From Balnearium lithotrophicum (GTDB taxonomy: Bacteria > Aquificota > Aquificia > Desulfurobacteriales > Desulfurobacteriaceae), in assembly GCF_900182585.1 (NCBI RefSeq), contig NZ_FXTM01000007.1, forward strand, positions 1-64,000: a stretch of DNA of 64,000 nt, given 5' to 3'. Below, one piece after another: positions 1 to 5,072 of the stretch. Positions within the stretch are counted from its first letter, which is position 1. Each line of letters starts with the position of its first letter. The notes below the pieces were generated by a model. That model was not told where the DNA came from and ran no database searches. It worked only from the letters and a program-made list of their open reading frames with translations. The position numbers were made by a program, and so were the translations under genes.

Positions 1-285
1 AGGTCTCCCAAGACCAATGCACATGTTGAAAGGTTCATACAGACGGTGGAGAAGGAACTGTGGATGATAGAAGGGACTGAGCCGACAGTTGATGAAATGA
101 ACAGGAAACTATTTAGGTATCTAAGCTTTTACAACTTCGTTAGGCCTCATCAAGGTCTTGGTTATAAGACTCCAGTAGAGAAGTTTGAGGAATATATTAA
201 AAAACTCCAGGGTGTCCACCATGTATTGAACGAGAACACCCCCTTGACAAGATTTGTAGGAAGTCTATATTTCCTCTTACGCTAA
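1..285 (+). CDS. Transposase, C-terminal fragment (DDE/rve integrase family)
   Basis: The reading frame is open from the first base of the window, so the N-terminal part lies outside. The visible part contains the NAHVERF segment, where DDE transposases of the IS3/IS481 type carry their last acidic residue, and the YNFVRPHQGLGYKTP block typical of the C-terminal end of the integrase core. After about residue 75 the similarity to transposases appears to stop. The last 15 or so codons coincide with a promoter-like sequence for the tRNA gene that begins 2 bp after the stop codon. The element therefore probably ends near position 238-243 and the ORF reads through into resident DNA. Whether the element is complete cannot be judged from this window. 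Confidence 0.8.
   Translation, partial: RSPKTNAHVERFIQTVEKELWMIEGTEPTVDEMNRKLFRYLSFYNFVRPHQGLGYKTPVEKFEEYIKKLQGVHHVLNENTPLTRFVGSLYFLLR
244..271 (+). promoter_or_regulatory. Sigma-70-type promoter for tRNA-Glu
   Basis: TTGACA at 244-249 is followed after 16 bp by TATATT at 266-271, about 16 bp before the first base of the tRNA. The promoter lies inside the 3' end of the transposase reading frame. Confidence 0.65.
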
Positions 286-1899: not shown

Positions 1900-2247
1900 T
1901 TAAAGGGCGGCTTTTGCCTTTTCAACAATTACTTTAAAGGCTTCTGGGTCCCTTACAGCAATGTCTGCAAGGATTTTTCTATCAAGTTCAATACCTGCTT
2001 TTTTGAGACCGTTAATAAACCTGCTGTAGTTAATTCCAAAGGGTCTAACTGCAGCATTGATACGGGCAATCCAGAGCCTTCTGAAGTCCCTCTTCCTTGT
2101 TCTTCTGTGTTGGTATGCGTAGAAGAGAGACTTCATTACAGCAATTTTCATAGTTCTGTAGAGCCTTGAACGGCCTCCAAAGTACCCTTTCGTTAACTTC
2201 TTCAGCTTTTTCCTTCTCTTTCTTCTTGGACTGTACTTTACTCTCAT
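1900..2247 (-). CDS. rplT: 50S ribosomal protein L20
   Basis: L20 is an early-assembly protein of the large ribosomal subunit that binds 23S rRNA; in other bacteria it also represses its own operon. The 115-residue protein has the expected very basic N-terminal extension ([20 protein letters not shown]) and the conserved globular part with [23 protein letters not shown] and LADIAVRDP. The ATG is preceded by AGGAGGAG. It is the last gene of thrS-infC-rpmI-rplT, a gene order conserved in many bacteria. A stem-loop lies directly upstream and is listed separately. Confidence 0.98.
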
Positions 2248-2310: not shown

Positions 2311-2508
2311 TTACATGTAGATTACAAGTTGTTTGTAGTTTGCTGCCTGTGCTCCTTCTAAGTACTTGGCCTTCCTTAACTTTCTTTTCCTCTTCCTGCT
2401 CTTTTTAGTAAGGATGTGGCTCTTTCCGGGAGACCAGTGCTTGATTTTTCCCGACGCAGTAACTTTAACCCTTTTAGCTGCAGACCTACGAGTTTTAATC
2501 TTAGGCAT
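2311..2508 (-). CDS. rpmI: 50S ribosomal protein L35
   Basis: This 65-residue basic protein of the large ribosomal subunit shows the typical L35 pattern: [20 protein letters not shown] at the start, then [16 protein letters not shown] and a short C-terminal tail. Length and position between infC and rplT match the conserved translation operon. An AGGAGG-like ribosome-binding site (GTAAAGGAGG) lies 5' of the ATG at 2508. Gaps to the neighbours are about 44 bp (infC side) and 63 bp (rplT side). Confidence 0.98.
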
Positions 2509-2552: not shown

Positions 2553-3074
2553 TCAATTCTTCTTGGGGGCAAGTATCATTATCATGTCCCTACCTTCCTT
2601 CTTTGGCTTTCTCTCCATCTCTGCAATATCCTTAACAGCATCGTATATCTTCAAAAGTTGGGCCTCTCCGAGGTCAACGTGTGCCTGTTCCCTTCCCCTA
2701 AACATAACAATTGCCTTAACCTTGTTTCCCTTCTCTAAAAACTTCCTCACCTGTTTAATTCTTACCTGCATATCGTGCTCATCTGTTCTCGGACGAATCT
2801 TTACCGTCTTAACTTCAATTGTTTTCTGCCTCTTCTTTGCTTCGTGCATCTTCTTCTGCATCTGGTACTTGTACTTTCCAAAGTCCATTATCCTGCAAAC
2901 TGGAGGATTGGCATTTGGTGAAACCTCCACAAGGTCAAGCCCTCTCTCTCTGGCCAAGTTTAGAGCTTCCCGCGTAGGCATTACCCCCAACTTTTGACCG
3001 TTTTCATCAATGACCAAAACTTCCCTTGCCCTTATTTTCTCGTTCACCCTTGTTTGTTCTAACTTTTTACTAAT
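2553..3074 (-). CDS. infC: Translation initiation factor IF-3, probable ATT start codon
   Basis: IF-3 binds the 30S subunit, keeps it apart from 50S and checks the start codon. The N-terminal domain (IRAREVLVIDENGQKLGV), the linker and the C-terminal domain ending in MIMILAPKK are all clear. The first conventional start is GTG at 3047, which has only a poor AAGG upstream and would cut the usual N-terminal arm. In frame, nine codons upstream, ATT at 3074-3072 stands 6 bases after the strong site GGAGGAGG (3088-3081). It gives an N-terminus continuing SKKLEQTR, as in other IF-3 proteins (173 residues). ATT is the known start of infC in E. coli, where IF-3 represses its own translation by rejecting non-standard starts. 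The gene begins 21 bp after thrS. Confidence 0.93.
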   Translation of the reverse strand: MSKKLEQTRVNEKIRAREVLVIDENGQKLGVMPTREALNLARERGLDLVEVSPNANPPVCRIMDFGKYKYQMQKKMHEAKKRQKTIEVKTVKIRPRTDEHDMQVRIKQVRKFLEKGNKVKAIVMFRGREQAHVDLGEAQLLKIYDAVKDIAEMERKPKKEGRDMIMILAPKKN

Positions 3075-3095
3075 GGCTAACCTCCTCCATATTGT

Positions 3096-5072
3096 TTATT
3101 TCTTTTCTCTAATTTCCCTTGTGATTTTATCTAAAAATTGGGCAATCTCCATACTTCCAAGCTCCCCTTCCCTCTTTGAACGGACAGAAACTGTCCCAGA
3201 ATCCTGCTCTTTCTGACCAACTATCAACATGTATGGAATCTTCATTGTTTCTGCCTTTCTAATCTTATAGCCGACCTTTGCACTCTCATCGTCAAGTTTT
3301 ACTCTGATTCCAGCCTCCTTTAACTTCCTGTAAACTTCATCGGCATAATCTAAGAATTTATCACTAACAGGAATGATTACCACCTGAGTAGGAGCTAACC
3401 ACGTTGGAAAGAGTCCAGCATAGTGCTCTATGAGAAGACCTATAAATCTCTCTATACTTCCCATTATGGCCCTGTGAACCATAACAGGTCTCTTCTTCTG
3501 TCCGTCCCTGTCAACGTAGGTCAAATCGAACCTTTCTGGGAGGTTAAAGTCAACCTGAATGGTAGGACCGTCCCACTTTCTACCGATTGCATCTAAAACC
3601 GCTATGTCAATCTTAGGCCCGTAAAAGGCTCCATCCCCTTCAACGATGTTATAGTCAAATCCCCTCTCCTTTAGTGCCTCTATCAGGGCGTTCGTTGCGT
3701 GTTCCCATGCTTCGTCACTTCCGATGTACTTTTCAGGCTTTGTTCCTATGTTGATTACGTAGTCAAGCTGGAATATCGATAGGAGCTCCATCACGTAGTC
3801 AAGAACTCCCTGAATCTCCTCCTTGAGCTGGTCCGGACGGCAGAATATGTGTCCATCGTCCTGAGTAAATCCCCTAACCCTTAACAGGCCATGAAGAGAC
3901 CCGCTCTTTTCGTACCTGTAAACCGTTCCAAACTCAAAGTACCTTATGGGTAAATCCCTGTAACTCCTAACCTGAGACTTGTAAATCAGAATGTGTCCGG
4001 GACAGTTCATCGGCTTAACGGCGTACCAGTTTGCCCTCTCTATCTCCTCACACGTGAGAGGAACTTCATCGTTTCCTAATCTCTCCTCTTCATCATGCTC
4101 AACAACGGGAACAAAGAACATGTTTTCCCTGTAGAAGTTGTAGTGTCCTGATGTCTTCCAGAGGTCGGCCTTCATTATGTGGGGAGTGTAGATACGCTGG
4201 TAACCCCTCTTTCTGTGCTCCTCCTCAACCCACCTTTCAATCTCCTGTCTGACAACTGAACCGTTTGGATGCCAGAATACAAGTCCCGGTCCGGCCTCCT
4301 CGTAGATTCCAAAGAGGTCAAGCTGCTTTCCAAGAATCCTGTGGTCCCTCTTTTTAGCCTCCTCCAACCTGTGAAGGTACTCGTCAAGGTCCTTCTTCTT
4401 CCAGAAGGCGGTTCCGTATATCCTCTGGAGCATCTTGTTCCTTGAATCCCCCCTCCAGTAAGCCCCAGCAACAGATAAAAGTTTAAATGCCTTTACAAGG
4501 CCAGAGTGTTCAACGTGGGGACCTTTGCAGAGGTCAAAGAAATCCTCTCCCAACCAGTAGATTGTTACTTCCTCATCCTCAGGTATCGATTCAAGAAGTT
4601 CCAACTTGTAGGGGTCATCCTTGAAGAGCTCCCTTGCCCTTTCCCTTGATACAACCTCCCTCCTGAAGGGCTCCTTTGACTGGACAATCTTCCTCATCTC
4701 CTCTTCTATCTTAGGTAAATCCTCTTCGGATATTGAGACGGGAAGGTCAAAGTCGTAGTAGAAACCCTCCTCTGTTGCAGGTCCTATTCCCAACTTAACG
4801 TTATCGTAGCCGTAGATTCTCTTAACGGCCTTTGCAAGGATGTGGGCAGCACTGTGTCTCAGAATTTGAAGGGATTCAGGGTCCTTTTGAGTTATTATTC
4901 TTATCCTCCCACTCTCCTTAATGGGAGTGTGGACATCTATTAACTCTCCATTGAAAAGGGCTCCAACGGCGTTTTTCTCTAAACTCTTTGAAATTCTCCC
5001 TGCTATCTCTTTAACGTTTGTTTCCCTATCAAACTCCAATTTACTTCCGTCGGGGAGCTCTATAACAATCAT
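3096..5072 (-). CDS. thrS: Threonyl-tRNA synthetase
   Basis: ThrRS charges tRNA-Thr and edits mis-charged serine. The 658-residue protein shows the full bacterial architecture. It has an N-terminal TGS domain (1-60, VIELPDGSKLEF) and an editing domain with HSAAHILAKAVKR (about 73-85), whose HxxxH contributes to the editing site. The class II catalytic core contains KPMNCPGHI (zinc Cys), RVRGFTQDDGHIF (motif 2 region) and HRAIMGSIERF (motif 3). A C-terminal anticodon-binding domain with VGYKIRKAE completes it. The ATG at 5072 is preceded by AGGAGAGG. It is the first gene of the thrS-infC-rpmI-rplT unit. No T-box leader is visible. Confidence 0.98.
   Translation of the reverse strand: MIVIELPDGSKLEFDRETNVKEIAGRISKSLEKNAVGALFNGELIDVHTPIKESGRIRIITQKDPESLQILRHSAAHILAKAVKRIYGYDNVKLGIGPATEEGFYYDFDLPVSISEEDLPKIEEEMRKIVQSKEPFRREVVSRERARELFKDDPYKLELLESIPEDEEVTIYWLGEDFFDLCKGPHVEHSGLVKAFKLLSVAGAYWRGDSRNKMLQRIYGTAFWKKKDLDEYLHRLEEAKKRDHRILGKQLDLFGIYEEAGPGLVFWHPNGSVVRQEIERWVEEEHRKRGYQRIYTPHIMKADLWKTSGHYNFYRENMFFVPVVEHDEEERLGNDEVPLTCEEIERANWYAVKPMNCPGHILIYKSQVRSYRDLPIRYFEFGTVYRYEKSGSLHGLLRVRGFTQDDGHIFCRPDQLKEEIQGVLDYVMELLSIFQLDYVINIGTKPEKYIGSDEAWEHATNALIEALKERGFDYNIVEGDGAFYGPKIDIAVLDAIGRKWDGPTIQVDFNLPERFDLTYVDRDGQKKRPVMVHRAIMGSIERFIGLLIEHYAGLFPTWLAPTQVVIIPVSDKFLDYADEVYRKLKEAGIRVKLDDESAKVGYKIRKAETMKIPYMLIVGQKEQDSGTVSVRSKREGELGSMEIAQFLDKITREIREKK

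Follow-up and report, generated by a model that had tools for sequence, protein, structure and literature searches.

The infC gene of Balnearium lithotrophicum, which encodes translation initiation factor IF-3, very probably starts at an ATT codon (position 3074, minus strand) behind a near-perfect Shine-Dalgarno (SD) sequence, and IF-3 most likely limits its own synthesis through this AUU. Coordinates throughout are those of the window, by which we mean the whole 64,000-nucleotide stretch that was analysed. The position of the start at ATT, and with it the rejection of a GTG at 3047, is strongly supported by the sequences of relatives.

The infC locus and its candidate starts

The genes lie in the order thrS-infC-rpmI-rplT on the minus strand, and the infC product is IF-3 (TIGR00168, 227.7 bits against a cut-off of 60). 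The features of the locus are as follows.

3096..5072, minus: thrS, upstream of infC (TIGR00418, 735 bits)
2553-3095, minus: infC reading frame from stop to stop, open throughout
3080..3088, minus: infC Shine-Dalgarno sequence GGAGGAGGT, with AGGAGGT at 3086-3080 matching the anti-SD
3072..3074, minus: infC start codon ATT; ATT/ATC/ATA in 19/19 family members and the sole candidate with a ribosome-binding site
2553..3074, minus: infC coding sequence from ATT, 173 aa plus stop (TIGR00168, 7e-68), start codon from relatives
3045..3047, minus: GTG, read as an internal Val codon and not a start; GTA/GTT/ATA in 16/19 family members, no SD
2311..2508, minus: rpmI (L35), downstream of infC (TIGR00001)
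1900..2247, minus: rplT (L20), downstream of infC (TIGR01032)

At the start of the window (1-285, plus strand) lies an ORF that runs off its edge and looks, by eye, like the C-terminal portion of a transposase from an insertion sequence.

The stretch from thrS to the IF-3 core reads AACAATATGGAGGAGGTTAGCCATTAGTAAAAAGTTAGAACAAACAAGGGTGAACGAG; the minus strand around the infC start is ...AAATAAACAATATGGAGGAGGTTAGCCATTAGTAAAAAGTTAGAACAAACAAGGGTGAACGAG... The thrS stop TAA (3098-3096) is also the in-frame upstream stop for infC and is separated from the ATT by 21 bases. Past this stop the IF-3 frame offers only ATT 3074, GTG 3047 and an ATA 15 codons upstream of the GTG, the last of which was rejected for its near-zero site (-1.1 kcal/mol). 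An out-of-frame mini-ORF across the infC start, ATGGAGGAGGTTAGCCATTAG, was likewise dropped, its ATG being missing in other members of the genus.

The 16S rRNA of the same genome ends in ...GGATCACCTCCTTTT, of which ATCACCTCCTTT is the pairing part. The motif GGAGGAGG (3088-3081) is followed by a six-base spacer (3080-3075) and then by ATT (3074-3072), and its duplex with the organism's own anti-SD, at -12.9 kcal/mol, ranks as a strong SD, compared with -0.6 kcal/mol for GTG 3047. Only 6 of the 2492 ATT triplets on both strands of the window, a count that includes the infC ATT by construction, have an equally strong site at a spacing of 4-10. Across 41 long ORFs in the window, the best canonical site has a median strength of -8.1, with the 5th percentile at -11.8; by this measure the infC SD stands out as unusually strong for this part of the genome. 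Masking of the SD by RNA structure was considered and rejected, since the start region is predicted to fold weakly (z -1.6), with the SD in a single-stranded part.

Conservation of the start within the family

We found infC in 121 of 136 genomes of the same phylum and read 95 of these, 19 of which belong to the window's own family (here f1). At the position of the window's ATT these 19 carry ATT (9), ATC (6) or ATA (4) and no other codon, and each has a strong SD upstream, with duplex energies between -11.5 and -13.6 kcal/mol and, on the duplex measure, a spacing of 4-5 bases. For one genome (L024) a CTG chosen by the automatic caller 30 codons upstream was set aside by hand for the aligned ATT. 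Isoleucine codons alone are no proof of a start, because an internal isoleucine would give the same pattern. What argues for a start is that many relatives lack a canonical alternative (in 12 of the 19, the frame from the upstream stop to the tenth codon of the IF-3 core contains neither ATG nor GTG nor TTG), together with the SD, the in-frame stops just upstream (with a single codon between stop and start codon in L036 and L047) and the CTG found at the same place in another family (see below). The S-K-K-x-x-x-T-R segment that follows is preserved as protein through synonymous codon changes (Ser 18/19, Lys 18/19, Lys 19/19, Thr 17/19, Arg 19/19); upstream of the start, the SD excepted, codons vary and include in-frame stops. 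Judged from this alignment, protein conservation in the family begins at the ATT codon.

A gene finder restricted to ATG, GTG and TTG would instead call a 164-residue IF-3 from GTG 3047, which is the only canonical start that the frame offers after the upstream stop and before the IF-3 core, and the point at which the Pfam domain begins. We regard translation from this codon as highly improbable. It is GTG in only 3 of the 19 family members, and across the phylum the position is occupied by Val or Ile codons of all kinds. It has no SD, and a start here would explain neither the conservation of the SKK...TR segment nor the strong SD ahead of the ATT. An earlier note on this DNA, made without relatives, had proposed the ATT start in the IF-3 frame with GGAGGAGG six bases ahead of it, had called the GTG site poor, and had pointed out that a GTG start would drop nine residues of a conserved arm. 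Its coordinates are right and the duplex energies agree with it; the N-terminal alignment that it proposed as a check bears out both the codon, as ATT, ATC or ATA, and the SD, and the segment between the start codon and the GTG, whose lack of conservation it had named as contrary evidence, is conserved in the f1 relatives.

Start codons in other families of the phylum

In a second family (f4) infC starts at ATT (30) or ATC (3) in 33/33 genomes, and 31 of these lack a canonical alternative altogether. In a third (f5, L051-L057) the codon nine positions ahead of the one that aligns with the window's GTG is CTG in 7/7 genomes, behind a strong SD and with Ser as the next residue, like the window; infC in this family appears to start at CTG, which is unusual for the gene. 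No ATG, GTG or TTG was found as the infC start in any of the 59 genomes of f1, f4 and f5. With related families on ATT/ATC and on CTG, the common trait is the class of codon and not isoleucine.

The discriminated start seems to have been lost in a further large family (f3; L058-L077, L085-L095 and others), where all 35 genomes start infC at ATG (25) or TTG (10); in three f3 loci for which longer flanks were read, thrS is absent from the position directly upstream. The sister family in the window's order (f2) is represented by a single genome (L050) and has infC at ATG. Together this one genome and the large f3 indicate that the discriminated start is dispensable. The IF-3 tree needs only two changes between the two start classes. 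On balance we favour, with some reserve, a history in which the phylum's infC start codon moved through ATT, ATC, ATA and, in one family, CTG, and another family switched to ATG or TTG.

The class of start does not depend on gene order, as five f4 loci with a gene other than thrS upstream retain ATT. In L008, L010, L015, L021 and L032 of f4 the stop TAG of the upstream frame lies two bases before the infC ATT, which suggests that infC there may be translationally coupled to the upstream ORF. In place of thrS these loci have a long, conserved ORF that looks by eye like L-aspartate oxidase (nadB).

Comparison with other phyla and with known infC systems

We also surveyed 80 named genomes from many phyla, an unbalanced sample composed mostly of Rhodobacteraceae and Bacillaceae. 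A clear non-canonical infC start was called in 73 of the 80 (ATA 32, ATT 20, ATC 18 and CTG 3, the CTG starts being calls of the automatic caller alone) by a rule that made three non-canonical calls among the window's 52 long ORFs, two of them judged false. In those three ORFs the non-canonical site was clearly better than any canonical one, and infC was the strongest; purF and rlpA were judged false positives after reading the sequence, each having a plausible ordinary ATG start. None of the 80 was clearly canonical, and the seven ambiguous genomes include three cyanobacteria with an ATG nearby but no SD. This suggests that bacteria usually start infC at a discriminated codon, which makes the lineages that lost such a start the informative cases.

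AUU is the infC start in E. coli and B. subtilis (PMC1805508; for B. subtilis also PMC6097659), Streptomyces infC starts at ATC and is misannotated in most species (PMC5472188), and in S. aureus ribosome profiling (Ribo-Ret) places the start at AUA (PMC13009471). The codons of the last two differ from the window's but are likewise discriminated by IF-3, and both also occur in f1. Our search of the literature on infC starts in Aquifex found none. The E. coli locus shares with the window the thrS-infC-rpmI-rplT order, the ATT codon and a strong SD at similar spacing (TTGGAGGAATAAGGT-ATT in our control), which makes the earlier note's analogy apt, although the E. coli IF-3 N-terminus KGGKRVQTARPNR is unlike that of the window; E. 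coli IF-3 represses its own synthesis, as IF-3 here may do. Many of the surveyed Bacillota (e.g. L111, L113, L114) resemble the window at the codon level, in that infC likewise opens ATT-AGT/AGC-AAA (start-Ser-Lys). Unlike B. subtilis infC, which has an L20-interacting RNA leader (PMC6097659), the window matched neither such a leader nor any other Rfam element at gathering score between 1500 and 6000.

Does IF-3 limit its own synthesis?

In the mechanism that we propose, the near-perfect SD would bring the 30S subunit to the infC start, where ATT 3074 would be read by initiator fMet-tRNA to give an IF-3 of 173 residues with Met-Ser-Lys-Lys at its N-terminus. Because AUU and the CAU anticodon mismatch at the third base, this complex would be open to destabilization by IF-3, so that it would be rejected when free IF-3 is abundant and accepted when it is scarce. 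IF-3 acts against codons other than AUG, GUG and UUG, that is, those without a 3' G, and also against an over-long SD (PMC4611024); in E. coli, going by the title of Butler 1987 as cited in PMC5472188, infC autocontrol is lost once AUU is replaced by AUG. That IF-3 discriminates against AUU is established in E. coli and assumed for this organism, and most likely IF-3 limits its own synthesis in this lineage as well.

Alternatively, the ATT could be the start and merely keep IF-3 synthesis low, in a lineage without IF-3 feedback. Non-canonical starts in S. aureus do cut reporter output to about 10% of AUG (PMC13009471). We nevertheless consider this unlikely: the codon has drifted among ATT, ATC, ATA and CTG across the 59 genomes of f1, f4 and f5 and never to ATG, GTG or TTG, which fits selection for an IF-3-discriminated codon, and low expression would be reached more easily through a weak SD, yet the infC SD is near-perfect, an arrangement with which simple attenuation is still compatible. 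Feedback through AUU is therefore the reading that we prefer.

Significance

The window's infC is an ordinary case of a known arrangement, a start at an IF-3-discriminated codon that is shared with E. coli, B. subtilis and many other bacteria, and it brings no new mechanism. The earlier note had seen in it conservation of the mechanism in a deep-branching thermophile; this is true of the start arrangement, but is to be expected given that in the sampled phyla infC usually starts at a non-canonical codon. Its view that automated annotation would miss such a start holds for Streptomyces, whereas the E. coli record places infC at ATT. What the finding does is correct a gene start: an essential gene in this lineage is given its true start, which makes the product nine residues longer than a call limited to canonical codons would, and the E. 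coli-type infC start-codon arrangement is extended to this phylum. The more interesting part is the family with CTG and the family with ATG or TTG. Provided that both the CTG start and the loss are genuine, they would amount to a natural experiment that asks whether IF-3 feedback can be dispensed with, and what takes its place.
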